DNA of 64,000 nucleotides from Halobaculum sp. XH14 (GCF_032116555.1 NZ_CP134949.1:2914001-2978000), one strand, 5' to 3'; shown: positions 26,352 through 50,720, counted from the stretch's first letter. Notes: generated from the letters alone by a model not told the origin. Translations and numbers: made by a program.

Positions 26352-26548
26352 CGTCAATAGAGATCATTCGAACGGTAGCCGTCGTGTTGGTGCGGTCCGT
26401 TCCTCGGAGATGGTCCCCCGAGACCATCGCAGTTTTCTCGATAGAGCCGTTCGAGACGTCTTCGACGGCGTCGATACCTCGCCGCTCCACAAAGACTTAA
26501 GTCACTGTTACGCGCAATCATGGGATACGGGCAGCGCCCGGGTGCACG

Positions 26549-27754: not shown

Positions 27755-27756
27755 CT

Positions 27757-28983: not shown

Positions 28984-29829
28984 CTACGACTCCTTGTCGG
29001 TGATCGATGCCGTGGATGCTTCCACGTATGCCGGTTCGAAGATGGTGTCCCAATCTTCACGGAAGATATCATCTTTTGCTTCGCGGACAATCTGTTGGGC
29101 ACCATCTGACAGAGGATATTCCACCTCGTCGAAGAGTATCGCCGATTCGATGCGCAAATGTCCCAGTACGAAGTCGCGAGCGGCCGCTTCGGGGACACCC
29201 ATTTCGACCGCTGTGTCGAGCCCTTCTCGGATGATCGTAAGACAGGTCGCAGTGAGTGTTTCCCCGAGAGCCGGTTCCAGGATGGCCATCTGCTCGGTGG
29301 TCAAACGATGGGCCTCGTCGACCGGGGCGTAGATGTCTCTCGCTATCGACTCCCCGACGTCGTAGTCCGATTCCGGCCCTTGTTCCAGCGCACAGACGAT
29401 GTTTTGTTCCGCCAGACCGCGTCCCCCGAAGAGGTCGGCCTGGGCCTCTCGGTCGGTTTCCGTTGCGAAGAGTTGCGGGTGACACGGATGGCTGATGAAA
29501 TACGTCACGTCGTCGCGTTCGTGCAAGACTCCCGCATGCGCGGCGGCGGGATCGAGTAGGAAGATGACCGTCCCTGCATCAAGGTGGGGAACTATCTCTT
29601 CGGTCAGGTCGCTGATTACCGTATCCGGAACTGCGAGGATCACGACGTCCGCCCCGGGGAGCGCCTCATCCTGGGACATCGGGGAGAGACCCCGTTCGGA
29701 AAGACGTTCGTGCCCTTCGGTACTCGGTTCGACACACCGGAGGTTGTAACTGGACACTCCGCCCAACTGGTCGACGATCCGGCATCCCATTTTGCCGCCG
29801 GCTCCCATGACTGTAATGGTGGTTGGCAT
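28984..29829 (-). CDS. PGDH-like NAD-dependent enzyme, D-apionate oxidoisomerase (ApnO) candidate
   Basis: A 281-residue protein with an N-terminal Rossmann motif GAGGKMG and a C-terminal all-helical domain of the phosphogluconate-dehydrogenase C-terminal type (EQMAILEPALGETLTATCLT; AARDFVLGHLRIESAILF). This architecture is what I recall for D-apionate oxidoisomerase, which converts D-apionate to 3-oxo-isoapionate. Two in-frame ATGs exist (29844 and 29829). The TATA-like box at 29857-29866 is about 27-32 bases from the second, so I chose 29829 (MPTTITVMGAGG). The RLP and DUF1537 kinase downstream in the island are the partners expected for this pathway. True 6-phosphogluconate dehydrogenase is unlikely: the protein is too short. 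Confidence 0.65.
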   Translation of the reverse strand: MPTTITVMGAGGKMGCRIVDQLGGVSSYNLRCVEPSTEGHERLSERGLSPMSQDEALPGADVVILAVPDTVISDLTEEIVPHLDAGTVIFLLDPAAAHAGVLHERDDVTYFISHPCHPQLFATETDREAQADLFGGRGLAEQNIVCALEQGPESDYDVGESIARDIYAPVDEAHRLTTEQMAILEPALGETLTATCLTIIREGLDTAVEMGVPEAAARDFVLGHLRIESAILFDEVEYPLSDGAQQIVREAKDDIFREDWDTIFEPAYVEASTASITDKES

Positions 29830-30007
29830 GACGATATCGTCCATTGACTCAACGGGTATTTATAATCTTGCGTTCCTCACAGCTCGACCCGCGAGTCTCG
29901 TACTGCTGCTGGCACATCCTCGGGCACCCACTCTCGACTGATTCGACCTCCACCGACCCTGTTCACCGGTAGATATAAATTCGAATCTTCGGATTTTCCG
30001 AACGGCA
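29830..30007. promoter_or_regulatory. Divergent promoter region between ApnO-like and GH127-like genes
   Basis: Two TATA-like boxes face away from each other: TATTTATAAT at 29857-29866 (for the minus-strand gene) and AGATATAAAT at 29971-29980 (for the plus-strand gene, about 30 bases before the ATG at 30008). Both would give nearly leaderless transcripts. The shared 178-base region suggests co-regulation. Confidence 0.6.
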
Positions 30008-31720
30008 ATGACTGACGACTCGCCGGCAGAGACGAAACAAGTACCGGATACGCTCCTCTTGGAGGATCACGCAAAGCTGGGACTGAACGCACTCACTGGC
30101 TACGTTGACCAGCGACGGGATCACATGCCCTATTTCTACGCCAATCTGAAGGCTGACCCGGCGAAACTGTGCCACTCCCGATGGGATTACGGTTCGTCCG
30201 TAGGTCGTCTCACATCGTCGTTCGCACTTGCACGAGAGATGACGAAGAGCGACGACGGGGCAGACGTGGAGGAGCGCCTCCGTGAGAAGCTCCTCGATTT
30301 CTTCGAGGATGACGGTCTCAACTATCGCCAGGGGTCGGAATCGTACGAAAAGGTCGCGAACATGCACGACCAACGCTCAGTGCTTCTCGGTCTGGTTGGG
30401 TGGGCCCTTTCAACCGACAGCGAGGAACCCCGTGAGGCCGCCGCAGATCTCTGTGCCGGTCTCAAGCGGATCGCAGAGAAGGGGAACAATCACGATGTCG
30501 ACAAGGATGACTTCTGGTACTTCCCTTCGGCCGAACATCCCCGTGGCGGCTGGCAAGCCGACGATATGATCTACCTCGGCATGTCGGTCGACCCTGCACA
30601 CACGAGCGCTCGCATGATCGACCCGCTCGTGAAATTTTACGAACTCACGGGCAATCAGGACGCGCTCGATCTGGCAGAAAACTTCGCCCGCCACACCGTC
30701 GAGTACAGTGGCGCCTTCAACGCCGACGGGAGCTTCAACGACGGCCACGAGTTCCGATTCGGTCACTTCCACAGTCGGACGGTCAGTGTCGCGTCCATTG
30801 CCCGCTACGGAGCCATCACCGGTGACGCGTCCTACCTCACTTGGGCGGAGAACATCTACGACTGGATCCTCGATCAGGGGACGGCATTCGGCTGGTTCCC
30901 GGGAGCACTCATCGAGACCAAGGCCCACCACCACGAAACCTGCACCCTCACCGACATCATCGAGATCGGTATCACGCTCGCACGGAACGGGTACGAGGAG
31001 TACTGGGACGACGTCGAGCGCTTCGTCCGAAATCACCTGGTCGAAACGCAACTCACGGAAAACGACTGGATCGTTGAGGGGGAGGAGTCGATGAACGACG
31101 AGGAGTGCGTCTTCACAGACGTTGGAGAGCGCTCGCTCGGGGCGTTTCCGGGATGGGCCGCTCCGCACGATTTCGTCTGTGACGTTGACCACATGAACGA
31201 CATCATGACGTGTTGTGTCGCCTCCGGCGTTCGCGGACTGTTCCTGGCGTGGGACAACGCCGTCACCGACGAAGGAGACCACCTCGCGGTAAATCTGCTC
31301 GTGAACCGCCAAACCGAGCAACTGGACGTCGAAAGTTACCTCCCCCACCACGGACGACTCGAACTCACAGCCAACGTCGATCTTGACGAGGTTCGTGTTC
31401 GCATCCCCCAATGGGCTGAGAATTCGGAGGTGCTGCTCGAGCGGGAGGATGACGAGCAGACCCCCGAATGGCGCGGGACGTTCGTCACCGTTCCCGACCT
31501 GGCAGAGGACGAATCCGTCACGATCACCTTCCCGGTCAAGGAACGGGAATCGACCGAAGCCGCCTGGAATCGTGACTTCGCCGTCGACTGGCGCGGAGAC
31601 TCCGTCCGCTCCATCTCTCCGTCGGGAACGCATTACCCGCTATACGCCGATCGAGAAGTGTACGACGACGTTCCGATGCGAACTGTCTCGACCGACCGTC
31701 GACGGACCTTCAGTTGGTGA
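30008..31720 (+). CDS. GH127-like glycoside hydrolase (beta-L-arabinofuranosidase/DUF1680 type)
   Basis: A 570-residue protein with a long alpha-helical barrel region (about residues 20-420) and a beta-rich C-terminus (about 430-560). In GH127 enzymes the catalytic zinc is held by a Glu-x-Cys pair and a Cys-Cys pair. Here they appear as Glu310 and Cys312 in HHETCTLTD, and Cys402-Cys403 in IMTCCVASG. No Tat or Sec signal is visible, so it should act in the cytosol on imported oligosaccharides. Beta-L-arabinofuranose and apiose are both furanosidic sugars, so a beta-apiosidase activity is conceivable, but that is speculation. It precedes the sugar transporter, with its own TATA-like box. Confidence 0.7.
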   Translation: MTDDSPAETKQVPDTLLLEDHAKLGLNALTGYVDQRRDHMPYFYANLKADPAKLCHSRWDYGSSVGRLTSSFALAREMTKSDDGADVEERLREKLLDFFEDDGLNYRQGSESYEKVANMHDQRSVLLGLVGWALSTDSEEPREAAADLCAGLKRIAEKGNNHDVDKDDFWYFPSAEHPRGGWQADDMIYLGMSVDPAHTSARMIDPLVKFYELTGNQDALDLAENFARHTVEYSGAFNADGSFNDGHEFRFGHFHSRTVSVASIARYGAITGDASYLTWAENIYDWILDQGTAFGWFPGALIETKAHHHETCTLTDIIEIGITLARNGYEEYWDDVERFVRNHLVETQLTENDWIVEGEESMNDEECVFTDVGERSLGAFPGWAAPHDFVCDVDHMNDIMTCCVASGVRGLFLAWDNAVTDEGDHLAVNLLVNRQTEQLDVESYLPHHGRLELTANVDLDEVRVRIPQWAENSEVLLEREDDEQTPEWRGTFVTVPDLAEDESVTITFPVKERESTEAAWNRDFAVDWRGDSVRSISPSGTHYPLYADREVYDDVPMRTVSTDRRRTFSW

Positions 31721-35205: not shown

Positions 35206-36372
35206 ATGAGCGAGGAGAAACACCAGTCCACGTTGCTCCAAGAACGGGACGGTGATGCATTCGAGTCGGGTGAGAGTGCCGCCGTCGAACTCGCTGACGT
35301 CAGGAAAGAGTACGGAGACATCGTCGCAGTCGACGACATCGATCTCCGGATCGAACCGACCGAGTTTTTCGTGTTACTCGGCCCGTCCGGCTGTGGCAAG
35401 ACGACCACCCTCCGAATGGTCGCCGGGCTCGAAACACCGACTAGTGGTCGTATCTCGATCGGGGACGAGGAGGTCACTGACATGCTCCCCCGCCACCGTG
35501 ACATCTCGATGGTGTTCCAGAGTTACGCGCTGTATCCACACAAGACCGTCAAGGAGAACCTCCGGTTTCCATTGAACAAGATGGATCTCTCGTCGGCCGA
35601 GAAAGCCGACCGAATCGCTGCAACGGCGGAGATGCTCGAGATAGACGACCTCCTCGAAAAAACTCCAGGGCAGTTGAGCGGCGGACAACGACAACGCGTC
35701 GCCGTCGGTCGGACCGTCGTCAGGGAACCGAGTGTATTCCTGATGGATGAACCGCTGAGCAACCTTGATGCCAAACTACGCGTCCAGACCAGGAGCGAAC
35801 TGCGACAACTCCAGCAGGAACTCGAGACGACCACGCTGTACGTGACCCACGACCAGGAGGAGGCGATGAGTCTCGCCGACCGGATGGCGATCATGAACGA
35901 CGGCGACATTGAACAGGTCGGGACGCCCCAAGAGATCTACGAGTCGCCGACGAACGCGTTCGTCGCTGGCTTCCTCGGGGAACCCGCAATTAACTTCCTC
36001 CCCGTGACCGATCGGACCGGAGGCAAGATCGTCGTCGGGAGCCTTCCCACAGGCGTGTTCGGAGATACGTTCCCGGTGGAGACAGAGCGGTTCGGCATCC
36101 GGCCAGAAGACATCGACGTCCTGGACTCCATGGACGGCGAGTGGGAAGACGTCGACGGGAAGAGCGCTCCCGTGGAGTTCACGGTACGATTCATCGAACC
36201 GCTCGGGAACTCATACGAAATCGAACTCACGAGAGAGGAAACCTCGTTGAAGGCTCACACTGTCGATCTGCCCGCCTCCGTCGAAGAGGGCTCGACAGTT
36301 CCGATCGTCTTCGACCTGCAGAACGTGCTCGCCTTCGATGCGAACGGCGATACCATCACTACGGAGGAATAA
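35206..36372 (+). CDS. Sugar ABC transporter ATPase, MalK/UgpC type (first of two)
   Basis: A 388-residue ATPase with Walker A GPSGCGKTTTLRM, Q-loop MVFQSYALYPHKTV, signature LSGGQRQRVAVGR, Walker B VFLMDEPLSNLDA and switch THDQEEAMSLAD, then a TOBE-type regulatory domain (from about residue 240). It starts 4 bases after the permease stop. The operon encodes a second full ATPase immediately downstream, so the transporter may use an ATPase heterodimer, or one subunit may serve another permease. Confidence 0.9.
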   Translation: MSEEKHQSTLLQERDGDAFESGESAAVELADVRKEYGDIVAVDDIDLRIEPTEFFVLLGPSGCGKTTTLRMVAGLETPTSGRISIGDEEVTDMLPRHRDISMVFQSYALYPHKTVKENLRFPLNKMDLSSAEKADRIAATAEMLEIDDLLEKTPGQLSGGQRQRVAVGRTVVREPSVFLMDEPLSNLDAKLRVQTRSELRQLQQELETTTLYVTHDQEEAMSLADRMAIMNDGDIEQVGTPQEIYESPTNAFVAGFLGEPAINFLPVTDRTGGKIVVGSLPTGVFGDTFPVETERFGIRPEDIDVLDSMDGEWEDVDGKSAPVEFTVRFIEPLGNSYEIELTREETSLKAHTVDLPASVEEGSTVPIVFDLQNVLAFDANGDTITTEE

Positions 36373-36375
36373 TCC

Positions 36376-37518
36376 ATGGCGAACGTCACTCTCGACGGGA
36401 TCACAAAGATCTACGACGACGCGAAAGGGACGGAAAGGGCGGTAGACGACATATCACTGGCGGTCGACGAGGGAGAACTCCTCGTGCTCGTCGGCCCGAG
36501 CGGTTGTGGAAAGAGTACGACGCTCCGGTTGATAGCCGGCCTCGAGGCCGTGAGTCAGGGGGCTATCGAGTTCGATGAATCCGAGGTCCAGACGCTGACC
36601 CCGAGCGACCGGAACGTCGCAATGGTGTTCCAGAACTACGCGCTCTATACGAAGATGACCGGCGAGCAGAACATCGAGTACGGGTTGAAACACTCGATGG
36701 ACATCCCGGAATCGGAACGGAAACGGCACGTTCACGAGACCGCTGAACTCCTCGGTATCGATGATCTCCTCGACGACCTGCCCGCAGAGATGAGTGGCGG
36801 ACAGAAACAACGAATCGCGCTCGCCAGAGCCATCGTTCGCGACCCTGCCGTGTTCTTGCTGGACGAACCGCTGAGTAACCTCGATGCGAAGCGGCGTGCC
36901 CAGATGCGGACCGAAGTCCAGCGAATTCACGAGGAGATCGATGTAGCCACGATCTACGTGACCCACGACCAGAAGGAGGCTATGACGATGGCCGATCGCC
37001 TCGCCGTCATGAACGACGGGGAAATCGAACAAATCGCACCCCCTGAGGAGGCCTATGACGACCCGAACAACCGCTTTGTCGCCACGTTCCTGGGTAGTCC
37101 GGCGATGAATGTTCTCGAGTGTGAAACGGAGCGACGTGGCGAGGAGGTGCAGTTGATCAGTTCGGCGAACAAGCGACCACTCCAGCACCTCCCGCGGGAA
37201 CTGGTCCCGGAGGAGTACGACCGGAGTCACCTCGACGTCGGTTTGCGCCCGGAGGACCTCAAGTTATCCACGGACACCAACGAGTACCCCGCGAACGCCG
37301 AAGTCGTCGTCTCCGAGTACCAGGGGAAGGAGAACTTCGTCTACCTCGACTTCGACGGCATCGAGTTGACCGTCCGAACCGGCGACGGTACCGATCTGCG
37401 GCAAGGAATGACGGTGAGTTTCACCGTCGCGCCGGCGAACGTCTACCTCTTCGACCCCGATTCGGGAACGTCCCTGAAGACGCGCTCAGCCGTGCGGGAA
37501 CCGGCGATCGTCGACTGA
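36376..37518 (+). CDS. Sugar ABC transporter ATPase, MalK/UgpC type (second of two)
   Basis: A 380-residue ATPase with all motifs intact: GPSGCGKSTTLRL, MVFQNYALYTKMTG, MSGGQKQRIALARAI, VFLLDEPLSNLDAKR and THDQKEAMTMAD, followed by a TOBE-type domain. It begins 3 bases after the first ATPase stop. It differs clearly from the first copy, so this is an old duplication and not a recent repeat. It ends the transporter operon, before a 370-base gap with an aldolase relic. Confidence 0.9.
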   Translation: MANVTLDGITKIYDDAKGTERAVDDISLAVDEGELLVLVGPSGCGKSTTLRLIAGLEAVSQGAIEFDESEVQTLTPSDRNVAMVFQNYALYTKMTGEQNIEYGLKHSMDIPESERKRHVHETAELLGIDDLLDDLPAEMSGGQKQRIALARAIVRDPAVFLLDEPLSNLDAKRRAQMRTEVQRIHEEIDVATIYVTHDQKEAMTMADRLAVMNDGEIEQIAPPEEAYDDPNNRFVATFLGSPAMNVLECETERRGEEVQLISSANKRPLQHLPRELVPEEYDRSHLDVGLRPEDLKLSTDTNEYPANAEVVVSEYQGKENFVYLDFDGIELTVRTGDGTDLRQGMTVSFTVAPANVYLFDPDSGTSLKTRSAVREPAIVD

Positions 37519-37888: not shown

Positions 37889-38548
37889 ATGAGCAGTGTA
37901 TGCTTCTTCCACACGGGAGCAGTGCTAACGGAGACGTTCGACGAACTAGCATCGGAATACATTCCGGACACCGAGTACTACCACATGGTAGACGAAAGCG
38001 TCATCGACGAGTTGCTCTCGGAGGGCGCGTTGACGCCCGGGATCACACAACGGATCTGCTCACAACTCACGCTCGCCGAGCAGGCGGGGGCGGACGTCGT
38101 CCTTGATACCTGCTCGAGCACATCCCCCGCGGTGAACGTGGCCCGGCAAATCGTCGATATTCCGATCGTCAAGATAGACGATCCGATGACGGAACGGGCA
38201 GTCGAAGTCGGTGACCGGATCGCAGTGATCGCGACGGCGGCGTCGACACTCGAACCGAGCACTGAACTGGTCGAGCGCAAAGCAGCCCGGACCGACAGAC
38301 CCATCGAGATTCAGTCGTCGCTCGTCGACGACGCGTTCGAAGCACGCCAGAACGGTGAGACGGAGCGTCACGACCGGCTCGTCACCGAACGCGCTCGCGA
38401 GGTCGCGGACGACGTCGACGTGATCGTGCTGGCGCAGGCGTCGATGAGCCACCTCGAGAACGAACTGTCTGAAGAGACTGGCCTGACGGTGCTCTCAAGC
38501 CCCGACTTAGCGATGGAGCGGATCGCAGACATCGCCCACTCGTCGTAG
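37889..38548 (+). CDS. Aspartate/glutamate racemase-family protein with only one catalytic cysteine
   Basis: A 219-residue protein with the Asp/Glu/hydantoin racemase fold. The first active-site cysteine is at Cys75 in VLDTCSSTSPAV. Where true racemases have the second cysteine (xxxxCT), this protein has VLAQASMSHLE without Cys, so a two-base racemisation is unlikely. A one-cysteine member could act as an isomerase, decarboxylase or hydrolase. A TATA-like box at 37851-37860 lies about 30 bases upstream. It precedes the RLP and kinase, suggesting a role on an acid-sugar intermediate; I cannot assign the reaction. Confidence 0.7.
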   Translation: MSSVCFFHTGAVLTETFDELASEYIPDTEYYHMVDESVIDELLSEGALTPGITQRICSQLTLAEQAGADVVLDTCSSTSPAVNVARQIVDIPIVKIDDPMTERAVEVGDRIAVIATAASTLEPSTELVERKAARTDRPIEIQSSLVDDAFEARQNGETERHDRLVTERAREVADDVDVIVLAQASMSHLENELSEETGLTVLSSPDLAMERIADIAHSS

Positions 38549-38653: not shown

Positions 38654-39916
38654 ATGGAGAGAATTAGGGCCCGCTATCGGATAGAGACACCATATCCACT
38701 CGACGAAGCAGCAGCAGCGATAGCCGGTGAACAGTCCTCGGGAACGTTCGTCGACGTCCCCGCCGAGACGGAGTCGCTCCAGGAACGACACGGCGCCACG
38801 GTCGAGGAGATAACCGAACTCGAAACAGTCGAGGAACCGACCCTCCCTGGCGCACGCACGCCGGCGGAGATCGACGATTCGGACGGGTATCGCCGTGCGG
38901 AAGTCGTCGTCTCGTATCCCGGGGAAAACGTCGGAACGTCGCTCCCGAATCTGGTGACGACTGTGGGCGGAAACCTCTTCGAACTCCGCCATTTCTCCGG
39001 ACTCCGGCTGTTCGACATCGACGTGCCAGCCGCACTGGCAGATGCGTACCCGGGTCCGCAGTTCGGTATCGAGGGCACGCGTGAGATCGTCGACGTGTAC
39101 GACCGGCCGCTCATCGGGACGATCATCAAACCCAGTGTGGGCCTCTCTCCGGCGGAGACCGGTGAGCTCGTCGGGGAGTTGCTAGAGGCGGACCTCGATT
39201 TCATCAAGGACGACGAACTCATCGCAAGCCCGCCGTACTCGCCCGTCAAGGACCGCGTGACCGCGGTGATGGGGGCTATCGACTCGTATCGAGATGAGAC
39301 GGGCAACGAAGTGATGTACGCCTGTAACATTACAGGCGACGTGGACGAGATGCTCGAACGACATGACGCCGTCGTCAACGCGGGCGGCAACTGCGTCATG
39401 GTGAGTATGAACAGCGTGGGGCTGTCTGCACTGACTGAACTCCGCAAGCACGCGGACGTCCCCATTCACGCCCACCGGAACGGCTGGGGTGCACTTTCAC
39501 GCTGTCCCGAACTCGGATACGAATATCAGGCGTATCATCAGTTCTTCCGACTGGCTGGAGCAGACCAGATGCACGTCAACGGCATCCGGAACAAGTTCTG
39601 TGAATCCGACGAGTCCGTGATCAAGTCCGCGAAAGCGGTGCAGACGCCCATCGCGTCGGACGACGACGTCGCGATGCCCGTGTTCTCGTCGGGACAGTGG
39701 GCCGACCAGGCGGCCGATACCCACGAGGCGCTCGGGAACGTCGACTTACTGTACCTCGCCGGCGGCGGCATCCTCGGTCATCCGGACGGTCCCGCGGCGG
39801 GCGTGGATCACCTCAAACAGGGATGGGAGGCCGCCATGAAGGGCATCCCGTTAGACGAACACGCCAAGGACCACCAAGAACTACGCGTGGCCCTCGATCA
39901 CTACGAGAGACGATGA
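38654..39916 (+). CDS. RuBisCO-like protein (RLP, form IV), candidate 3-oxo-isoapionate-4-phosphate enzyme
   Basis: A 420-residue RuBisCO large-subunit homologue. Key positions are Lys159 in GTIIKPSVGLSP, the metal site FIKDDE with Lys185-Asp187-Glu188 (the lysine is carbamylated in true RuBisCO), His274-Arg275 in HAHRNG, Lys314 in GIRNKF, Ser346-Gly347 in SSGQ and GGGILGHPDG at 370-379. The loop-6 sequence and spacing differ from carboxylating RuBisCO, and no phosphoribulokinase-type partner is nearby, so it is form IV. RLPs paired with DUF1537 kinases decarboxylate or cleave 3-oxo-isoapionate-4-phosphate in bacteria. The kinase gene overlaps its stop by 4 bases (ATGA). Confidence 0.85.
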   Translation: MERIRARYRIETPYPLDEAAAAIAGEQSSGTFVDVPAETESLQERHGATVEEITELETVEEPTLPGARTPAEIDDSDGYRRAEVVVSYPGENVGTSLPNLVTTVGGNLFELRHFSGLRLFDIDVPAALADAYPGPQFGIEGTREIVDVYDRPLIGTIIKPSVGLSPAETGELVGELLEADLDFIKDDELIASPPYSPVKDRVTAVMGAIDSYRDETGNEVMYACNITGDVDEMLERHDAVVNAGGNCVMVSMNSVGLSALTELRKHADVPIHAHRNGWGALSRCPELGYEYQAYHQFFRLAGADQMHVNGIRNKFCESDESVIKSAKAVQTPIASDDDVAMPVFSSGQWADQAADTHEALGNVDLLYLAGGGILGHPDGPAAGVDHLKQGWEAAMKGIPLDEHAKDHQELRVALDHYERR

Positions 39917-41292
39917 CGGACACTGACCTCCTCCTCGCCTACTACGGCGACGATATCACCGGGTCGACGGACGCACTGGAAGGGCTGGCGCGAAATGGCG
40001 TCCGGGCAGTCCTCTTCCTCGCCCCGCCCGACTCCGACGACCTCGACGAGTTCGACGGGATTCAGGCGGTGGGCGTCGCGGGACGCAGTCGTTCGATGAC
40101 GCCGGACGAGATGGACGAGACCTTGCCGTCGGCGTTCGAGTCACTCGCAGCACTTGACCCGCCGCTCGTCCACTATAAGGTATGTTCGACGTTCGATTCA
40201 GCCCCCGAAATCGGAAGCATCGGCCACGCGATAGACCTCGCCCAGGACGTCTACGACTCACCGTTCGTCCCCGTATCACAGGGCTCGACGGTTCCACACG
40301 GCCGGTACGTCGCGTTCGGGAACCTATTTGCGGTCCAGGACGGGACGCCGTACCGGATCGACCGTCATCCGACGATGAGCGACCACCCGGTGACGCCCAT
40401 GTCGGAGAGCGACCTCCGTCGCCATCTGGCAGAACAGACCGACCGGTCGATCGGCACCGTCGACGTTCGCAGTTTGGCGACCGTCGACTCGGCAGTCGAC
40501 TCTCTCGACGAAGCGACGGACAACCACGAGATCGTCGTGTTCGACGGGATCACGACCGATCACCTCGAGACGATTGGACGGGTCCTCTGGGACCGGGCGA
40601 CGAGCGAGTCCGATCCGCTGTTTGCCGTCGGGTCGTCCGGCCTCGAACACCACGCGCTGTCGAGCCGATGGGACGCGCTCGGAGAGATCGACCGCTCCCA
40701 GTCCGTTCTCGAGCCACGGTCCCCCGTCGACCGGATCGCGGTGATGTCCGGCAGTGCCTCGCCGGTGACTGCCCGTCAAATCGAGGTCGCCGCGGAGACC
40801 GGATTCACTATCATCGATCTCGAGACGGCACGTCTCGTCGACCCCGCAGAAGCGGCGGACGCGCGCGCGATCGCCGTCGAAGCTGCGGTTCAGGCCATCG
40901 ACGGCGGCCAGAGCGTCGTGCTCGCGGCCGCTCGCGGCCCTGACGATGCCGCAATCGCCGAGACACGACTACGATTCGAATCGGTCGATAGCGACGAGAC
41001 GCTCGGTGCGGTACTCGGTCGGGAACAGGGCGAAATCTTCCGTCGCGTGCTCGAGGAGACCGGAATCGAACGCGCCTGTGTAGCCGGTGGTGATACGAGT
41101 GGCTTCGTCGTGCCAGCACTGGACGTCACGGCGCTAGAGCCCATCGCGCCAACCGCCCCGGGTGCTCCTCTGTGTCGCGCCGCGAGCAATGACCCAACGT
41201 TCGATGGCCTCGAGTTATCGCTCAAGGGCGGTCAGACCGGCGACGATGACTACTTCGAACTCGTCCGACGGGGCGGTGTCCCCGCGGAGTAA
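39913..41292 (+). CDS. DUF1537 four-carbon/branched acid-sugar kinase, OiaK-like candidate
   Basis: A 459-residue kinase of the OtnK/DtnK/OiaK family. Visible blocks are YYGDDITGS at the N-terminus, VHYKVCSTFDSAP, YRIDRHPTMSDHPVTPM and the C-terminal nucleotide-binding AGGDTSGFV and LKGGQTGDDDYF. The frame extends upstream inside the RLP gene, but the ATG at 39913 overlaps the RLP stop and gives the canonical start. In the apionate pathway the family phosphorylates 3-oxo-isoapionate on C4, supplying the RLP substrate. 3-oxo-tetronate kinase is the main alternative; the missing class II aldolase argues against it. Confidence 0.85.
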   Translation: MTDTDLLLAYYGDDITGSTDALEGLARNGVRAVLFLAPPDSDDLDEFDGIQAVGVAGRSRSMTPDEMDETLPSAFESLAALDPPLVHYKVCSTFDSAPEIGSIGHAIDLAQDVYDSPFVPVSQGSTVPHGRYVAFGNLFAVQDGTPYRIDRHPTMSDHPVTPMSESDLRRHLAEQTDRSIGTVDVRSLATVDSAVDSLDEATDNHEIVVFDGITTDHLETIGRVLWDRATSESDPLFAVGSSGLEHHALSSRWDALGEIDRSQSVLEPRSPVDRIAVMSGSASPVTARQIEVAAETGFTIIDLETARLVDPAEAADARAIAVEAAVQAIDGGQSVVLAAARGPDDAAIAETRLRFESVDSDETLGAVLGREQGEIFRRVLEETGIERACVAGGDTSGFVVPALDVTALEPIAPTAPGAPLCRAASNDPTFDGLELSLKGGQTGDDDYFELVRRGGVPAE

Positions 41293-41590
41293 GGCGTCCC
41301 GACGTACCGACGCTGCTGATCGAACGAATCGTCACCCCCGGTTCGAAGACAGCCACGCGACGTCTCGTCCGTTCCGGTTCCGGGATCCCTCTCGTTGAAC
41401 CCATGGTATCGTCGGGGTGCCGACGTACGTTCTGACGGTCGATGAGAGTCCCGGACGATAGATCCCAATCCGGATGGTGATGAATCTGTTACGTCCCGTT
41501 CTGCGTCGACGGTAGTGTTTCAGTGAGCGAACACCATTGGTATCCATCAGGCACCGAAAGGCATATCGTGAGCAGATGAAACTAATTTCC

Positions 41591-42466
41591 ATGGATATTG
41601 TCGTTACGGGCGCCGTTGGACAGACGGGGAGCTGGACCGTGGACCATTTCGCTGATATGGGATACGAGGTACTGGGCCTCGACCTACGGCGACCGCCTGG
41701 TGACCGGTCGAACGTCGATTTCCGTCCGGCAGACGTGACCGACCAGGGCGATGTCCTCGAATTCATCCTCGACGCTGACCCCGACACAGTGATTCACTTC
41801 GGGGGACTACGAAGCGATCGCGGCTCGGACAACGCGATCTTTCACACGAACGTCCAGGGGACGTACAACGTATTAGAAGCGGCCGGACGGACGGACGCGA
41901 ACGTGATCTGGGCCTCCAGCGAGGCCGCATACGGTCGGTTCCTCCCGGACAATCCGGTCGAATACCTCCCGATCGATGAATCACATCCGGTGCGACCGAA
42001 GAGACCGTACGGCACGTCGAAACTCCTCGGCGAAGAGGCCGGCAAAGCGGCGTCCAGACGATACGGGATTTCCGTCGTCTCACTGCGAGCGACTTACATC
42101 CGCTACCCCGGTGAGTACTGGACGGGGATACTCGAATCCGACGACGAAGATCGACTTGGCGAGTCCGGAAATCTCTGGAGCTACGTCGACATTCGCGACG
42201 TACTCGCCTTCATCGAGGCGGCCATCGAGACCGACCTCGACGGGCACGAGGCGTTCAACGTCTCTGCCGTCGATAACCGTGCCGGTGCCCCTACACGGTC
42301 CATCGTCAAAGCGATGTACGGTGACCTGCCCGACCGTTGTGACATCTCCGGCGAAGAGTCAATCTACTCGATCGAGAAGGCCCGCAACCTTCTCGATTGG
42401 ACGCCCGCGCACCGATGGCGGACCGCGGCTGAGGAGGAATCTTACACCCCCTCCTTCCTAGAGTGA
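41591..42466 (+). CDS. NAD-dependent epimerase/dehydratase (extended SDR), sugar dehydrogenase candidate
   Basis: A 291-residue extended SDR with VTGAVGQTGSW (GxxGxxG-type cofactor loop), DLRRP after the second strand (suggesting NAD), a serine in WASSEAAYG and the catalytic PYGTSK. Upstream ATGs at 41537 and 41576 exist, but a TATA-like box near 41561-41568 favours 41591. Relatives include uronate dehydrogenase and nucleotide-sugar epimerases. In this island an oxidation of free apiose, rhamnose or a uronate to its lactone would be sensible; the exact substrate is not readable from sequence. Confidence 0.75.
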   Translation: MDIVVTGAVGQTGSWTVDHFADMGYEVLGLDLRRPPGDRSNVDFRPADVTDQGDVLEFILDADPDTVIHFGGLRSDRGSDNAIFHTNVQGTYNVLEAAGRTDANVIWASSEAAYGRFLPDNPVEYLPIDESHPVRPKRPYGTSKLLGEEAGKAASRRYGISVVSLRATYIRYPGEYWTGILESDDEDRLGESGNLWSYVDIRDVLAFIEAAIETDLDGHEAFNVSAVDNRAGAPTRSIVKAMYGDLPDRCDISGEESIYSIEKARNLLDWTPAHRWRTAAEEESYTPSFLE

Positions 42467-42934: not shown

Positions 42935-45900
42935 ATGCCATCTCCTCCCCGGATATCGGAACGTCCAACGGTCATCGCTCCGAAAGTAGAGTACGAGAGG
43001 GCACCGAACAACGTGGTTCCCAGCGAACCGCGATTTTCGTGGCAGGCGAACGCCGACCGGCGAGGAGTCGTCCAGACTGCATATCGGGTCATCGTCGGCC
43101 GGACGAGAGACGATGTCGTAGAGAAACGGGGGTCACTCTGGGATTCGGGGAAAGTGGACGGATCCGATTCGACGTCCGTCGTGTACGACGGTGTTCCCCT
43201 GGAGGCGGACAGCGACTACTACTGGAGGGTGCGGATCTGGGACGAGGACGACCGACCCTCGAAATGGTCCGACCTCTCCAGCTTCTCGACTGCGCTCTCC
43301 GGCGAGCACGAGTGGGATGGCGAGTGGATCAGCTACCAACCGGGCGCCGGCGACTCGAACGGCTACCGGAGTCGCTGGCATCCCGCCACCAAGGACCCCG
43401 AGGAGTGGGTACAGGTCGACCTCGGTGAGTCGCGTCCGATCACGCGGATCGAACTCCATCCGGCGTCGCCGTGCGACGGTCCGGAGACGCCCGATGGCGT
43501 GGTGGTCTCGAACGTCTACTCGATCGACGATGACCTTGAGAGCGGTCCCAGGGGATTCGGGTTCCCCGTTCGCTACCGGATCGAGGTTTCGGACGACGAG
43601 ACGTTCGCCCAGTCGAGCGTCGTCGTCGACAGAACCGAGGAGGCGCAAGCGAACCCGGGGACCGATTCGCGCTCGTTCGACGTGAACACGACCGCACGGT
43701 ACGTCCGGGTCGTTGCCACCGACCTGTACACGTTCGATCCGGCGACTCCTCCAAGAGACCGGTTTGGCCAGCTACGGACCGAGTTTGCCCCGGAGGCCTA
43801 CGGGTCGTGGCAGACCTTCGCCCTCGCCGGCCTCGGAGTGTACAACGGCGGTGAAACCGACGTCGCAGCCGACCGGCCGGTGACCGCATCGTCCAGTGTC
43901 GAGCGAGAGGGGTGGGGCCGATCCAACCTCGTCGACGGATGGTACGCGTCGCGGACGGCGGCCGCCTCACCGCTGTTTCGGACCGACGTGGCGCTCGATG
44001 GAGATGTCGTACGTGCCAGAGCGCACGTCTGCACGCTCGGGTACGGTGAACTGTATGCCAATGGCGAACGAGTGGGTAACGAGGTTCTCAACCCAGGGTG
44101 GACCGAGTACGACGAGCGGGCGCTGTACAGCACGTACGACCTCAGTGAACACCTCGAAGCGGGCGAGAATGCACTGGGCCTCTGGCTCGGGCGGGGATGG
44201 TTCTCGAAGAACGCGCAGGGATGGACGGGCTTCGGTTCGCCGCGTGCCCTCCTGCATCTGACCCTCGAGTACGCGGACGGTTCGACCCGGACGATCGGGA
44301 CCGACGAGTCGTGGACGGCGACGGAGAGCCCCATCGTCGAACACGACCTCTACGATGGCGAGCGGTACGACGCCCGCCTGGAACAGCCGGGATGGACGGA
44401 ACCAGATTTCGACGGCGAATGGGAGTACGCGACGGTCGTCGAGGGCCCGGACGGGGAGCTCACACCCCAGCGACTCCCGCCGATCCGCGTGACGGAACAG
44501 ATCGATCCGGTTGAGGTTCACGACCACGAGAAGGGCCCGATCTTCGATTTCGGCCAGAACCTCGTCGGCTGGGTGGCGATCAACGTACACGGCGCTGACG
44601 CCGGCGACGAGATAACGATTCGGCACGCAGAGACCCTCCTGGACGATGGAAGTCTCGCGATGGGAGATCTCCGAACGGCCGACGCGACGGACACCTACGT
44701 CGCTGCCGATTCGAGCCGGGCAACTTACCGACCTCGATTTACGTACCACGGATTCAGATACGTGCAGGTGTCGAACTACCCGGGCGATCTCTCGACGGAC
44801 GACCTACGCGCACACGTCGTCCATTCCGATCTCGACCGGATCGGTTCGTTCGACTGCTCGAATACGGACCTCCGTCAAGTGCAACGGAACGCGATGTGGG
44901 GCCTTCGGGGTAACGTACACAGCGTCCTCACGGACTGTCCACAGCGCGACGAACGGTTCGGCTGGACCGGCGATAACCACATCGCCGGCCGGTCACTGAT
45001 GTTCAACTTCGACGCGGCGCTGTTTTACGAGAAGTGGATGAACGACCACGCTGACGTCCAGTCGGACCACGGCTACGTGGCGGACACGATCCCGTACGGC
45101 TATGGATCTACGCCAGAAGACCCGACCTGGGGCATCACGCAGGTCACCATTCCCTGGCACCTGTACCGGCACTACGGTGACCGTGGCGTCCTCAAGCGTC
45201 ACTACGAACGGATGCGTCGGTACGTCGACTACTGGGATGAACAGTCGAACGACGGGATCATTCCCGACAAGTACGGGAAATACGGTGACTGGCTCGCGTT
45301 CGAAAACGCCGACGGGCGACGGGGACTGCCGTTCGACCTGTTCAATAGCGCGTTCCATTACCACACGACGAATCTGTTCGCGAAGATAGCGACGACGCTC
45401 GGAAACGAGGCTGACGCCGCCACGTATCGACGGCGCGCAGAACACATCGCTGACGCCATCAACAACGAATTCTTCCGAGCTGATGAGGCGCGGTACGGAC
45501 CTGGAACGCAAGCATCGTACACGGTTCCGCTGTTCGTGGGACTCGTCCCGGACGAACACGTGAACGACGTCGCCACGCGGTTGGCTGAGACTGTCCGTTC
45601 GGACGGTTGCAAACTGAAGACCGGCTTCCTCGGCACACGTCCGCTCCTCCATACCCTCGTCGACCATGGGTACGAGGAGATCGCCTACGAAGTCGTGAGC
45701 CAACCGGAGCAGCCCGGATGGGTGTACATGGTCCGGCAGGGCGCGACGACGATGTGGGAGCGCTGGGACTCGGACTCCCGGATCGGTTCCGGGATGAACT
45801 CGTTTAATCACTCTCCGTTCACGTTCGTCTCCGAGTACCTCTACGAGGCGATCGCCGGACTCCGACTGGGCGACGATCCAGTCACTGACCATGCGACGGT

Positions 45901-46225
45901 CGCACCGACGCTCGTTGACGCCCTCGACTGGGCCGAAGGGCAGGTGGAGACGCCCAACGGCGAGTTCACGGTGGCCTGGGAGCGGACTGACTCCGACCGG
46001 GGATACGAACTCTCCACGACAGTCCCATGGAACACGACCGCAACGGTTCGCCTGCCCGGTGCGGCTGACTCGCTCGTCACCGAGTCCGGCACGCGACTCG
46101 CTGGGACGACCGGTGACGTTCCGGACGGTATCGACGCTGTTCGCCAAGAGGAGGGCGATCTCGTCGTCGAAGTCGGTTCCGGGACGTACCAGTTCGCCGT
46201 TGAATCGGAGCAGCCCTCCCGCTGA
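42935..46225 (+). CDS. Alpha-L-rhamnosidase, glycoside hydrolase family 78
   Basis: A 1096-residue enzyme releasing terminal L-rhamnose. The N-terminal fibronectin/Ig-like region has FSWQA, QTAYRVIVG and LWDSGKV (residues about 30-75). An inserted discoidin-like segment (VQVDLGESRPITRIELHPAS, about 157-300) could bind carbohydrate. The next beta domain has GYGELYANGERVG, then an (alpha/alpha)6 barrel with DCPQRDERFGWTGD at residues 667-680, Glu673 being the likely general acid, and Glu942 in TTMWERW the likely base. A beta-sandwich closes the protein. No Tat or Sec signal is present, so it probably acts on imported rhamnosides. TATA-like box at 42901-42910; nearly leaderless start. Confidence 0.92.
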   Translation: MPSPPRISERPTVIAPKVEYERAPNNVVPSEPRFSWQANADRRGVVQTAYRVIVGRTRDDVVEKRGSLWDSGKVDGSDSTSVVYDGVPLEADSDYYWRVRIWDEDDRPSKWSDLSSFSTALSGEHEWDGEWISYQPGAGDSNGYRSRWHPATKDPEEWVQVDLGESRPITRIELHPASPCDGPETPDGVVVSNVYSIDDDLESGPRGFGFPVRYRIEVSDDETFAQSSVVVDRTEEAQANPGTDSRSFDVNTTARYVRVVATDLYTFDPATPPRDRFGQLRTEFAPEAYGSWQTFALAGLGVYNGGETDVAADRPVTASSSVEREGWGRSNLVDGWYASRTAAASPLFRTDVALDGDVVRARAHVCTLGYGELYANGERVGNEVLNPGWTEYDERALYSTYDLSEHLEAGENALGLWLGRGWFSKNAQGWTGFGSPRALLHLTLEYADGSTRTIGTDESWTATESPIVEHDLYDGERYDARLEQPGWTEPDFDGEWEYATVVEGPDGELTPQRLPPIRVTEQIDPVEVHDHEKGPIFDFGQNLVGWVAINVHGADAGDEITIRHAETLLDDGSLAMGDLRTADATDTYVAADSSRATYRPRFTYHGFRYVQVSNYPGDLSTDDLRAHVVHSDLDRIGSFDCSNTDLRQVQRNAMWGLRGNVHSVLTDCPQRDERFGWTGDNHIAGRSLMFNFDAALFYEKWMNDHADVQSDHGYVADTIPYGYGSTPEDPTWGITQVTIPWHLYRHYGDRGVLKRHYERMRRYVDYWDEQSNDGIIPDKYGKYGDWLAFENADGRRGLPFDLFNSAFHYHTTNLFAKIATTLGNEADAATYRRRAEHIADAINNEFFRADEARYGPGTQASYTVPLFVGLVPDEHVNDVATRLAETVRSDGCKLKTGFLGTRPLLHTLVDHGYEEIAYEVVSQPEQPGWVYMVRQGATTMWERWDSDSRIGSGMNSFNHSPFTFVSEYLYEAIAGLRLGDDPVTDHATVAPTLVDALDWAEGQVETPNGEFTVAWERTDSDRGYELSTTVPWNTTATVRLPGAADSLVTESGTRLAGTTGDVPDGIDAVRQEEGDLVVEVGSGTYQFAVESEQPSR

Positions 46226-46334
46226 CTGCGCCCAAGACACGCCTGAACGATGGTTGTGGGCGATCCGTTCGGATCTTCGAGCCGGATACCCCCTCGCTTT
46301 ATTAGAATCCATCTCTCGTGTCTATCCGTCTGTC

Positions 46335-47636
46335 ATGAGCGAACAGTATGGACACGAACGCGAGTTCGTTCGAACGTTCTTCACGTCTCCGACCGCGGTG
46401 AAGGGGGAGGACGACTCCGCCAAGATGATCCGCAGCGCGGCCGGACTCCGCGGGCTCCAGGCCCCCGACGTCTGGGTCCCCGACAACGAGGACGCGACCG
46501 CGCCCGCCATGCGTGAGGAGGGCGTCGAGAACATCGTCGAGGTCGTCGCCGAGCACGGTGCCGAGTTCCCCGGCGAGATCCACCCCCGCGTCGTCTGGCA
46601 CCGCGACAGCCCCACCACGCGTCACTCGGGGTTCCAGCAGATCATGGAGATCGCCGACCCCGACAACGGCGCGGTCGAGCACGTCGACGGGTTCGTCATT
46701 CCGGAAGTGGGTGACGTCGACGACTGGAAGAAGGCCGACGAGTTCCTCACCATCGTCGAGACCGAGCACGGACTGGAGGAGGGGAGCCTCTCGATGTCCG
46801 TGATCGTCGAGAGCGGCGAGGCCGAACTCGCCATGGCCGACCTCCGCGAGGAGATGGGCAAGCCCTCGAACAATCTCGAACGGCTGTTCATGCTCGTCGA
46901 CGGCGAGGTCGACTACACCAAGGACATGCGGGCGATGACGCCGACCGGCGAACTGCCGCCCTGGCCCGAACTCCGGCACAACACCTCCCGCGGTGCCAGC
47001 GCCGCCGGCCTGATCGCCGTGGACGGCCCGTACGACGACATCCGCGACGTCGAGGGCTATCGCGACCGGATGCGGGACAATCGGGCCAAGGGGATGACCG
47101 GCATCTGGTCGCTGACGCCCACACAGGTCGAAGTGGCGAACACCGACCCGCTCCCGCCGACAACCGGAAGCTGGCTGCTCTCGGTCGGGGACGACGAGGT
47201 CGACCTCCCCGCCGAGGGCGACCGGGCCGTCTACGACGGCGAGGACCTCTCGCTGGCGGAGACCGACGACGGGTACGTCCTGGGTGTCGACGGCGACGAG
47301 CACGAACTGGACGCCGACGGCCTGCACGAGGAACTGCTCGACCGCATCTCGTACGTGCCGAGCATGGACGACATCGTCGACTCGATGGAGGAGTTCGAGG
47401 CCGCAAAGGAGGCGGGCAGGGGCGCGATCGCCATGACCCAGTCCACGACGCTCGTCCTCGACGGCGTCGAGGTGGCGTTCAGCACGGATCGGATGTGGGA
47501 CGAGGCGACCTACCAGGCGGCCCAGACGCCGATCACGCTGTTCCAGGACGTCTACGAGCACCGACCCGACCAGCACGCGGAACTCGAGGAGATGTACGGC
47601 CCCGACGTCGTCCAACGGGCGAGGAACCTCGGATAG
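46335..47636 (+). CDS. aceB: Malate synthase, haloarchaeal type
   Basis: A 433-residue protein matching in length and sequence the atypical short malate synthase of haloarchaea, which condenses glyoxylate and acetyl-CoA to malate and CoA. Recognisable blocks are VRTFFTSPTAVKGEDDSAKM, VWVPDNEDATAPAM and SLSMSVIVESGEAELAMAD. The frame is open upstream into the rhamnosidase gene, but the ATG at 46335 lies about 34 bases after a CTTTATTAG TATA-like box. No isocitrate lyase is in the window. Its neighbour is a glycolate/D-lactate oxidase, so glyoxylate is more likely to come from glycolate. Codon GC is higher than in neighbours, suggesting a core-type gene. Confidence 0.9.
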   Translation: MSEQYGHEREFVRTFFTSPTAVKGEDDSAKMIRSAAGLRGLQAPDVWVPDNEDATAPAMREEGVENIVEVVAEHGAEFPGEIHPRVVWHRDSPTTRHSGFQQIMEIADPDNGAVEHVDGFVIPEVGDVDDWKKADEFLTIVETEHGLEEGSLSMSVIVESGEAELAMADLREEMGKPSNNLERLFMLVDGEVDYTKDMRAMTPTGELPPWPELRHNTSRGASAAGLIAVDGPYDDIRDVEGYRDRMRDNRAKGMTGIWSLTPTQVEVANTDPLPPTTGSWLLSVGDDEVDLPAEGDRAVYDGEDLSLAETDDGYVLGVDGDEHELDADGLHEELLDRISYVPSMDDIVDSMEEFEAAKEAGRGAIAMTQSTTLVLDGVEVAFSTDRMWDEATYQAAQTPITLFQDVYEHRPDQHAELEEMYGPDVVQRARNLG

Positions 47637-47687: not shown

Positions 47688-50600
47688 TCAAACGATCGCT
47701 TCGTGAACCTTCTCGATGGGATGAGACACGCGCTCACCGTATCGGTCGTCGAGTTGTGTCCGACATGATGCCCCCGGTGCCACGACGCTCTCACCCGGAC
47801 TTCGGTCCACCTGGTCGTACAGGATCCGTCCGATGGCCTTCGAGAGGTCGTAGTGTTCGGCCTCGTATCCGAAGGAGCCAGCCATGCCACAACAGCTGGA
47901 GTCGAGGGAGTCGACTTCGTATCCGACCGCCCGTAACACCGCTGCGGTGTGGTGGTCGCGGTTCAACGCCGACTGGTTGCAGTGGCCATGGTACGTGAGG
48001 TGTTCTCCGGACACACGGAACTCGATCTCGTCGTACACTCGATACGTGTTCAGGTACTCACATATCCCGTAGGCGTTCGCGGAGACGGTCCGAACGTCCC
48101 CGCCGGAGAGTAGGTCGAGATACTCGTCCTGGAACATCGCCGCATCCGACGGCTCGACGAAGACGACCGACCATCCATCCTCGAGGAAGGGTGCCAGCGC
48201 GTCGACGTTAGTCGACGCCCGGTCGCGAGCCTCGTCCAAGAGACCCATCGAGAACGCCGCTCTTCCGCTCGGTTCGACTTCACTGGGAGCGAGGACTCGA
48301 ACGTGGACGTTTGCCTCCTCGAGGACGTCCACGGCGGCCTTTCCGGGTTCGGGGTAGCTGTAGTTCGTGTACGTGTCCGGAAACAGGAGGACTTTGTCGC
48401 TCGAGGCATCGATCGAGACACGGTTCTCGCGGGACCGCGCCCAGTCGACGAATGTCTCTCGCCGAAACGTGGGCGTATCGCGCTCGGCTGCGATACCGAA
48501 CAGCCGTTCTCCGAGGAAGTCGGCACCGGGAAGCTGTTGCATCCAGTTCGAGAGCGGCGCGAGGTTGCTTCCGATGGCACTGACTCGGTCGACGTTGGCA
48601 AACAGTCGCTCGCGAACCGTGCGTCCCGCCTCCTGATGGTATTCGTGTTTCACTTCAGCCTTGAGTTTCGCCAGGTCGACACCGGTGGGGCAGTCGCTCT
48701 TACAGCCCTTACAGCCCACGCAGAGGTCCAGGACCTCCGTCTGGAATCGTTCGGAGTACAGTTCCGATTCAGGGAGTTCCCCACTGATCGCAGCGCGGAG
48801 AAGGTTCGCCCGGCCACGCGTCGTCTGGATCTCCTCGTTGGATGCACGGTAGGTCGGGCACATGACGTCGCTACCCGTCTGGCGACACGTCCCGCATCCG
48901 TTGCAAAGTTCGACGAGATCGGAGAACCCACCTTCGTCGGTGAAATCGAGCGTCGTCTGTGGCTCAAGCGACTGATAGTCCGCGCCATACCGGAGGTTCT
49001 CGCGCATGTCGGCACCGACGCCACGTTCGGAGTCCGGCCCGATGTCATCCGGCCCGTCGCGGTAGACGACGTTACCAGGATGCATGTCCCATCCGGGATC
49101 GAAGGCTGTCTTGACCGCCTTGAACGCTGCCCAGAGATCTTCACCGTACATCTTGGGATTGAATTCGGTGCGAGCCATCCCGTCGCCGTGTTCGCCCGAG
49201 AACGCACCGTGGTGTTCGAGTACCAGGTCAGTCACGTCTTCGGTGATCGAGTGCATCGTCTCGATGCCCGCCTCCGTCTTCAAGTTCAGAACGGGGCGGA
49301 TGTGAAGCGTTCCCGACCCAGCGTGGGCGAAGTAGGCAGCCGAGGTACCGTGGGTGTCGAGGACGGCTTCGAACTTCTCGACGTACTCGGCCAATTCGGC
49401 CGGCGGGACCGTCGCATCTTCGATAAACGGGTACGGCTTTGGGTCCCCTTCGAGTGACATGAGTAGAGGGATGGCCGCTTTTCGCAATTTCCAGATGTCG
49501 GCCTGGTCCTCGTCGGTGTACGCTTCGACGACATCGAACGCGTTACCGTCATCGAGAAACCGTTCGTTGGTCGCGGCGATGGCCGCCTCGAAATCGTCGT
49601 GGAGTTCCGAGTCGTACTCGAGCATCAAGGCGGCCGCCGTTCCTTCAGGTAGGGGTTCGACGTACTCGGCATACCCGTCCGACTCGGAGGCGAGCCGGAA
49701 GACCTCATCGTCCATCAGTTCGACGGCGCTGACGTCGTACTCCAGGGCGACCGGAACCGCCTGCATCGCCTTGACCAGATCGTCGAAACAGTACAAAGCG
49801 AGCGTCGTCGCCTCGGGCACGGTCACCAGTGAGATCTCGGCTTCGACGATGACGCCCAGCGTGCCTTCTGCGCCGACGAACAGTTTCGCGAGGTTGATCA
49901 CCTGCTCGCCGTCTTCGTTCTCGTAGATCACCCGGTCGAGATTGTAGCCGGACACGCGGCGTTTGAGTTCGGGGTAGCGTTCGGCGATCTCTTCTTCATT
50001 GTCCTCGACAAGTTGGCGAACGGTCTCGTACACGTTGGCCTCACGGTCGTCTTTCCCGACGATGTGGTCGTATTCCTCGCTATCGATGACGACCTCACGG
50101 GCGTGGAGGAGGGTACCGTCGGAGAGCACGGCCTTCACTTCTTCCGTATACGCGTCGGTGATGCCATAGCGCACGGAGTGTGCACCGGTCGAGTTGTTGC
50201 CGATGCCGCCACCGACGGTCGCACGATTCGACGAGGCGGGGTCCGGCGCGAACTGTAGTCCGTGCTCGGCCAGCACCGCGTCGAGGTCGTCCTGGACGAC
50301 GCCCGGTTGGATCCTCGCTCGCTGCTCGTCGGGGCGAACGTCGAGCACCTCGTTCATGTGTCTGGACATATCAAGGATGACACAACCCGGGCCGACAGCC
50401 TGACCCCCGAGAGATGACCCCGTTCCCCTTGGCATCACCGGGACATCGTGGTCCGTCGCTACCTCGACTGCCGTCTGCACGTCCTCGACCGAGGTGGGAT
50501 AGACGACGCCGGCGGGCCGAGACTGGTAAATGCTGCCGTCCGTGGCGTAGAGAATTTGTGCGTATTCGTCGAAGCGAACGTCACCGGCAACTGCGGCTCC

Positions 50601-50720
50601 GAGGTCAGTCGCGAGCGCCCGATACTCCGGAACGACATCGTCGACTTCACGATCGAGATCTGAAGGATTGGCCGGCGATTCTACTGGCTGTACCGACGGC
50701 TCTCGCTCTTGGGCGCCCAT
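47688..50720 (-). CDS. Fused FAD/Fe-S oxidase: glycolate or D-lactate dehydrogenase (GlcD-GlcF type)
   Basis: A 1010-residue protein. Residues about 60-290 form the FAD-binding PCMH domain (MPRGTGSSLGGQAVGPG; TVGGGIGNNSTGAHS), about 300-560 the FAD-oxidase C-terminal domain with the SGEHGDGMARTEF block, then two 4Fe-4S motifs (CNGCGTC from Cys606 and CVGCKGCKSDCP from Cys667) and C-terminal CCG domains (SCCGMAG with Cys943-Cys944). This combines GlcD and GlcF in one chain and would pass electrons to the membrane quinone pool. Convergent with malate synthase, it would turn glycolate into glyoxylate. D-lactate is the main alternative substrate. Confidence 0.85.
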   Translation of the reverse strand: MGAQEREPSVQPVESPANPSDLDREVDDVVPEYRALATDLGAAVAGDVRFDEYAQILYATDGSIYQSRPAGVVYPTSVEDVQTAVEVATDHDVPVMPRGTGSSLGGQAVGPGCVILDMSRHMNEVLDVRPDEQRARIQPGVVQDDLDAVLAEHGLQFAPDPASSNRATVGGGIGNNSTGAHSVRYGITDAYTEEVKAVLSDGTLLHAREVVIDSEEYDHIVGKDDREANVYETVRQLVEDNEEEIAERYPELKRRVSGYNLDRVIYENEDGEQVINLAKLFVGAEGTLGVIVEAEISLVTVPEATTLALYCFDDLVKAMQAVPVALEYDVSAVELMDDEVFRLASESDGYAEYVEPLPEGTAAALMLEYDSELHDDFEAAIAATNERFLDDGNAFDVVEAYTDEDQADIWKLRKAAIPLLMSLEGDPKPYPFIEDATVPPAELAEYVEKFEAVLDTHGTSAAYFAHAGSGTLHIRPVLNLKTEAGIETMHSITEDVTDLVLEHHGAFSGEHGDGMARTEFNPKMYGEDLWAAFKAVKTAFDPGWDMHPGNVVYRDGPDDIGPDSERGVGADMRENLRYGADYQSLEPQTTLDFTDEGGFSDLVELCNGCGTCRQTGSDVMCPTYRASNEEIQTTRGRANLLRAAISGELPESELYSERFQTEVLDLCVGCKGCKSDCPTGVDLAKLKAEVKHEYHQEAGRTVRERLFANVDRVSAIGSNLAPLSNWMQQLPGADFLGERLFGIAAERDTPTFRRETFVDWARSRENRVSIDASSDKVLLFPDTYTNYSYPEPGKAAVDVLEEANVHVRVLAPSEVEPSGRAAFSMGLLDEARDRASTNVDALAPFLEDGWSVVFVEPSDAAMFQDEYLDLLSGGDVRTVSANAYGICEYLNTYRVYDEIEFRVSGEHLTYHGHCNQSALNRDHHTAAVLRAVGYEVDSLDSSCCGMAGSFGYEAEHYDLSKAIGRILYDQVDRSPGESVVAPGASCRTQLDDRYGERVSHPIEKVHEAIV

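Follow-up and report, generated by a model that had tools for sequence, protein, structure and literature searches.

A haloarchaeal RuBisCO-like protein and DUF1537 kinase of the isoapionate type, RuBisCO-like at four sites that differ in the OiaX clade

Judged by sequence, the RuBisCO-like protein (RLP) and the DUF1537 kinase encoded together in Halobaculum sp. XH14 are archaeal members of the isoapionate-type RLP-kinase family that lie outside the OiaX clade, the RLP being RuBisCO-like at four sites. The window, that is the whole stretch of 64,000 nucleotides that was analysed (NZ_CP134949.1:2914001-2978000), carries a gene set, unmatched by curated models, in which we see a variant form of a pathway already known from bacteria, most likely used to degrade a branched sugar acid from plants. 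We find it highly probable that the pathway class is that of a phosphorylated branched 3-oxo sugar acid. Our best full explanation, to which we give somewhat better than even credence, is a D-apionate-type route in which the RLP would cleave its substrate to 3-phosphoglycerate and glycolate. The case draws on gene order, homologies, active-site residues and conserved linkage, all of which were observed directly. The two central genes are located where the earlier note had placed them:

38654..39916, plus strand: RLP, RubisCO-like protein of the 3-oxo-isoapionate-4-phosphate type, 420 aa
39913..41292, plus strand: DUF1537 kinase (SBD_N and NBD_C domains) of the OiaK type, 459 aa; PF07005/PF17042

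For the kinase, a GTG start at 39697 from the mechanical ORF list was discarded as too early and the ATG at 39913 was taken.

The RLP matches RuBisCO_large (PF00016, E 3e-72) and PF02788. In a gap-free alignment with haloarchaeal form III RuBisCO, its K159 corresponds to K175, K185-D186-D187-E188 to K201/D203/E204, H274-R275 to H294/R295, and G370-G371-G372 to the G403/G404 loop. All the residues listed in the earlier note (K159, the KDDE motif at 185-188, His274-Arg275 and the GGG loop) are therefore present, and the lysine and acid ligands fall on true RuBisCO positions, so that the misalignment feared there did not occur. Altogether, E26, T31, N107, K159, K185, D187, E188, H274, R275, H307, K314, S345, G371 and G372 are retained, while S161 replaces K177 and F315 replaces L335, and the RuBisCO positions W66, H298 and G380 are changed as well. 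Among the 14 active-site residues of RuBisCO listed in PMC5786004, 11 are kept and 2 changed, Tyr20 lying outside the comparison. The protein thus has the domains and fold of the RuBisCO superfamily with at least one active-site residue replaced, as in form IV. As K177 and L335 are replaced, the former family-wide, we regard it as an RLP and not as a RuBisCO, and the data support the prediction that it is a catalytically intact RLP paired with a kinase acting on a phosphorylated sugar acid. Where the earlier note went too far was in treating the listed residues as distinctive: in a set of 109 distinct RLP and RuBisCO sequences (19 from the OiaX clade, 70 other family members and 20 form III RuBisCOs), they are common to the whole family, and of the 89 family members compared, only a single degenerate copy departs from them. 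They do not separate activities, because the decarboxylase OiaX keeps all of them.

What does separate the groups is a set of four other positions, E26, N107, H307 and S345 in the RLP, which equal E60, N123, H327 and S379 of RuBisCO; E60, N123 and H327 are active-site residues according to PMC5786004. All 19 OiaX-clade sequences carry E60D, N123G, H327Q and S379C/G, whereas the other family members, window RLP included, keep E60, N123, H327 and S379 in 70 of 70 cases. Form III RuBisCOs have N123, H327 and S379 in 20/20, and E60 in all 5 of the 20 in which that column was aligned. In the tree, OiaX forms its own long branch and the haloarchaeal RLPs a clade (96/97). PMC6302742 describes decarboxylation of 3-oxo-isoapionate-4-phosphate by the RLP of A. 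radiobacter K84 and, citing Carter et al. 2018, transcarboxylation/hydrolysis of the same compound by that of X. autotrophicus. One plausible explanation of the residue pattern is that OiaX dispensed with residues required only for the steps that follow decarboxylation, and that the window RLP kept those serving recarboxylation and cleavage. As it keeps all four, the predicted activity is decarboxylation, recarboxylation and hydrolytic cleavage, rather than OiaX-type decarboxylation or an MtnW-type enolase reaction. The same reaction type is thus predicted for it as for the X. autotrophicus protein, the two being likened by reported reaction and not by sequence; such a reaction calls for the entire RuBisCO-like series of steps. 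If this is true, recarboxylation takes place in the catabolism of an archaeon at an active site like that of RuBisCO, the four residues divide RLPs limited to decarboxylation from RLPs possibly capable of recarboxylation and cleavage, and the family offers a natural comparison of the RuBisCO residues required after enediol formation.

The curated models lead to a similar placement. OiaX (NF042437) is the top family model for the RLP by about 230 bits (E 6e-149), but the score of 496 bits stays below the cut-off of 700, while Rhizobiales OiaX proteins score 758-791. Likewise, OiaK (NF042436) is the best model for the kinase by about 270 bits (E 5e-137, 457 bits; next best 184 bits), yet the equivalog cut-off of 700 is not reached; both domains, SBD_N with 182 bits and NBD_C with 112 bits, are above the gathering score. 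Since the two proteins score below these cut-offs, neither was filed as an OiaX or OiaK member. OiaX identity was rejected for the RLP on its score and on the absence of the D60/G123/Q327/C-or-G379 pattern, which was derived in this analysis and is not a published definition. Rhizobiales OiaX is nevertheless alike in many respects: it belongs to the same family (about 49% identity), has the same kinase partner, retains K175/K201/D203/E204/H294/R295/K334/G403/G404, and in Shinella its locus contains ApnO. It differs in forming a separate clade and in the four substitutions.

The pair is surrounded by the following genes:

28984..29844, minus strand: ApnO-like D-apionate oxidoisomerase (Rossmann and PGDH_C domains), 286 aa; PF16896 E 2e-53, PDB 5t57 E 7e-75
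30008..31720, plus strand: GH127-like glycosidase, 570 aa; PF07944 29.5 bits; E-T-C312 and C402-C403
31925..37518, plus strand: sugar ABC importer (SBP_bac_1, MalG-like and MalK families), composed of the next three entries
31925-33316, plus strand: ABC binding protein, SBP_bac_1
33340-34254 and about 34248-35201, plus strand: two ABC permeases, MalG-like
35206-36372 and 36376-37518, plus strand: two MalK-type ATPases, MalK families
37889..38548, plus strand: Asp/Glu-racemase-fold protein, 219 aa; PF01177 E 3e-21; AlphaFold pLDDT 93 with racemase-fold hits
41576..42466, plus strand: NAD-dependent epimerase/dehydratase-type SDR, possible sugar dehydrogenase; PF01370; start codon uncertain
42935..46225, plus strand: GH78-type alpha-L-rhamnosidase; NCBIfam rhamnosidase 621 bits (cut-off 1720)
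46332..47636, plus strand: haloarchaeal malate synthase AceB; NF041315 832 bits, above the cut-off of 780
47688..50720, minus strand: fused FAD/Fe-S 2-hydroxyacid dehydrogenase (glycolate or D-lactate dehydrogenase-like); GlcD, GlpC and YdiJ matches, none above cut-off

From these genes we infer a substrate, an order of steps, RLP products and a use of glycolate, as follows. The ABC importer would bring in a glycoside, from which the GH127-like glycosidase (and GH78) would release sugars; oxidation would yield D-apionate, which ApnO would convert to 3-oxo-isoapionate and the DUF1537 kinase, in turn, to 3-oxo-isoapionate-4-phosphate. The RLP, with Mg on carbamylated K185, would decarboxylate the latter to the enediolate, re-add CO2 at the neighbouring carbon, hydrate and cleave as RuBisCO does. 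The products would be 3-phosphoglycerate and glycolate, which the X. autotrophicus reaction reportedly yields. The nearby flavin dehydrogenase and malate synthase would then take glycolate through glyoxylate to malate, a step for which the case is circumstantial.

Several observations count against the D-apionate route: RLP and kinase stay below the OiaX and OiaK cut-offs, there is no apiose dehydrogenase or lactonase among the assigned genes, the ApnO homologue lies 9 kb from the RLP-kinase pair on the opposite strand, and, as described below, the genome has no GH140 apiosidase, AceB above cut-off is missing in most RLP haloarchaea, and the racemase-fold gene is elsewhere mostly found in the absence of ApnO. 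The ApnO homologue is 54-60% identical to the kinase-adjacent gene in Halorubrum, in a same-genus genome and in Halalkalicoccus, and RLP, kinase and ApnO genes are repeatedly found as neighbours in haloarchaea, Alphaproteobacteria and Paenibacillus. One Paenibacillales locus (G874, L168) has the window's gene set contiguously, as ABC-GH127-racemase-ApnO-RLP-kinase, which argues that the window genes belong together. (In relatives, neighbouring genes were called by codon usage, with the RLP, the kinase and further matched genes as training set, and their starts are approximate.) The GH127-like protein is 42-45% identical to a GH127-like gene beside racemase-RLP-kinase in Paenibacillus and Cohnella, whose clusters also contain GH78. 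The Cys3-Glu zinc motif which defines the site of Clan GH-P, i.e. GH127/GH146 (PMC10850190), was recognised as a sequence motif in the window protein and in 10 of its 11 relatives. A search of solved structures found no close one and placed the protein near neither aceric acid hydrolase nor arabinofuranosidase. For the SDR, the best NCBIfam matches were GalE (55 bits) and Azf G6PDH (48 bits). Further upstream, 25317-28785 holds a Zn-dependent dehydrogenase, an L-rhamnonate dehydratase-like enolase-superfamily gene and an LLM oxidoreductase, which may together form a rhamnose branch to go with the downstream GH78.

The dehydrogenase/AceB pair lies 5 kb downstream of the kinase. Adjacency of the two genes was found in three other RLP haloarchaea (G105, G311, G191) and at a second site in this genome (G000), and in Natronoglomus the RLP has a copy of the dehydrogenase at a distance of 14 kb; AceB scoring above cut-off is missing in six of the ten RLP haloarchaea. 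The genome has a second AceB copy (C1:1636631-1637914), 98% identical to that of the window. The dehydrogenases beside the two copies are about 67-69% identical, convergent with AceB in the window and divergent from it at the second site; this looks like a recent duplication or conversion of AceB alone. Isocitrate lyase gave only weak partial matches, in one open frame.

These neighbours matter for the alternative that the pathway is the same and the RLP a plain decarboxylase like OiaX, giving L-erythrulose-1-phosphate and CO2, with the dehydrogenase and malate synthase as chance neighbours. OiaX is after all the best family model, both reactions begin with decarboxylation as their first half, and AceB is not beside the RLP in most RLP haloarchaea. 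On the other hand, the four residues lost in 19/19 OiaX-clade proteins are kept here, and OiaX is a separate branch of the tree; we thus hold this reading to be possible, though rather doubtful, and prefer cleavage to 3-phosphoglycerate and glycolate.

The RLP stop and the kinase start share ATGA, as noted before, a junction of -4. The same value occurs in Natronoglomus, but it is -1 in Halorubrum, -8 in four other haloarchaea and +1, +22 or +28 in further related ones, and at one haloarchaeal locus the kinase gene is about 8 kb from the RLP. Close RLP-kinase linkage is thus usual and the 4-base overlap is not conserved. The reading of stoichiometric production from the overlap was rejected, as the junction varies among haloarchaea; moreover, translational coupling alone would not give a 1:1 ratio. 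A close RLP homologue was present in 10 of 391 sampled haloarchaeal genomes and many haloarchaeal RLP-kinase loci are plasmid-borne (plasmid hits H1-H8), which together suggest horizontal spread of RLP-kinase.

The racemase-fold protein keeps the first catalytic cysteine (C75, TCSS). The second, required in addition for an Asp/Glu racemase, is absent, the position reading LAQ(A/G)SM in 18/18 sequences; with a single catalytic Cys, the protein is probably not a two-base racemase. In 38/49 Paenibacillales loci its gene immediately precedes the RLP (within 100 bp in 37), and it does so in some haloarchaea as well. Counted per Paenibacillales genome, racemase and ApnO occur together in 2, racemase only in 34, ApnO only in 5 and neither in 2 (Fisher p 4e-4, phylogeny not controlled). 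A high-scoring GH140 apiosidase was found in 6/7 ApnO-positive and 1/13 ApnO-negative Paenibacillales (Fisher p 0.001, phylogeny again not controlled), and in neither the window genome nor nine other RLP haloarchaea (0/10). That RLP-linked GH140 tracks ApnO in Paenibacillales supports the apionate assignment of ApnO-bearing loci; as apiose use tracks ApnO, the substrate of the racemase branch is probably a different one. The conserved racemase-fold partner points to an unassigned enzyme of plant-sugar breakdown across Bacillota and haloarchaea. In two Paenibacillales genomes, G685 (L169, L170) and G705, the racemase gene lies about 90-105 kb from the RLP, in the former next to esterase and Gfo/Idh genes, so that RLP-kinase and the racemase unit need not travel together. 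In one Paenibacillales RLP clade (L133, L135, L137-L140), the phosphate loop at 379-381 reads SSKQW (G381 to K), and the loci of this clade have an esterase-like gene, not GH127, upstream of the racemase.

It is therefore worth weighing whether the GH127-racemase-kinase-RLP unit serves another carboxylated branched sugar by an undescribed catabolic route, the sugar being e.g. the aceric acid found in rhamnogalacturonan II. ApnO would then be replaced by the racemase-fold protein, acting as a one-base aldose-ketose isomerase with CH2OH-CO-C(OH)(COOH)-CHOH-CH3 as its product. C1 would be phosphorylated by the kinase, and the RLP would form 3-phosphoglycerate and lactate, or a 5-deoxyketopentose phosphate and CO2; apionate would be a second substrate in the window, supplied through ApnO. 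What recommends such a route chemically is that the required 3-oxo acid would need no enzyme beyond an aldose-ketose isomerase, and the missing second cysteine fits a one-base isomerase. The racemase gene stands upstream of the RLP mostly in genomes without ApnO, where GH140 is rare, BT1003, an aceric acid hydrolase, belongs to GH127 (PMC10850190), and GH78, GH106, GH43 and GH42 occur as neighbours. A pectin locus of Croceibacterium moreover combines GH28, GH95, a fucosidase, GH127-RLP-kinase and D-lactate dehydrogenase with no ApnO beside them, but this locus also lacks the racemase beside RLP-kinase. Against this reading, the GH127 structures solved so far are only distant relatives of the GH127-like protein, some clusters have an esterase in its place, and ApnO lies within the unit in G874 and near it in the window. 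We consider it unlikely that the unit serves such another sugar and retain the D-apionate-type route.

Structure modelling, proposed in the earlier note, was carried out for the RLP with AlphaFold from 12 sequences (pLDDT 86), and the model aligned with RuBisCO and RLP structures at Z 37-51. The nearest solved structure, PDB 3nwr (Z 51.0, 1.9 A, 401 residues), is the Burkholderia fungorum RLP, 45-46% identical yet of a different clade; form III RuBisCO with bound 2-CABP gave Z about 40, and DK-MTP-1-P enolases Z about 41-42. The common fold and the shared enediolate step would suit an RLP of the enolase or isomerase kind, like that of methionine salvage. However, the MtnW enolase models are far from their cut-offs (TIGR03332 141 of 513.6 bits, NF007095 200 of 409), and the kinase and the ApnO neighbour belong to the isoapionate family, which makes this reading very improbable. 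Of what had been proposed earlier, action together with the kinase on a phosphorylated sugar acid is thus supported and the "enolase-type" label is not; with OiaX as the best model, one expects a 3-oxo acid to be decarboxylated or transcarboxylated. That the protein is a true CO2-fixing RuBisCO is practically out of the question, as haloarchaeal form III, for all its shared fold, most catalytic residues and about 34% identity, has K177 and L335, which are replaced here together with W66, H298 and G380, and as the form III model scores 267 bits (cut-off 497) and the genomic context differs, being catabolic.

In four haloarchaea, a protein of roughly 267 aa with an apparent internal repeat (SHGG/SHGER motifs) is encoded directly upstream of the RLP (L046:8377-9183, L047:8435-9241, L048:8497-9297, L049:8483-9286); the two of the four that were compared had no Pfam or NCBIfam match. 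At Pullulanibacillus L005:11357-12664, an MFS transporter gene sits between RLP and kinase. Finally, the RLP at L130:6931-8190, probably a degenerate or repurposed copy, has replacements at the positions equivalent to E204, H294 and K334.
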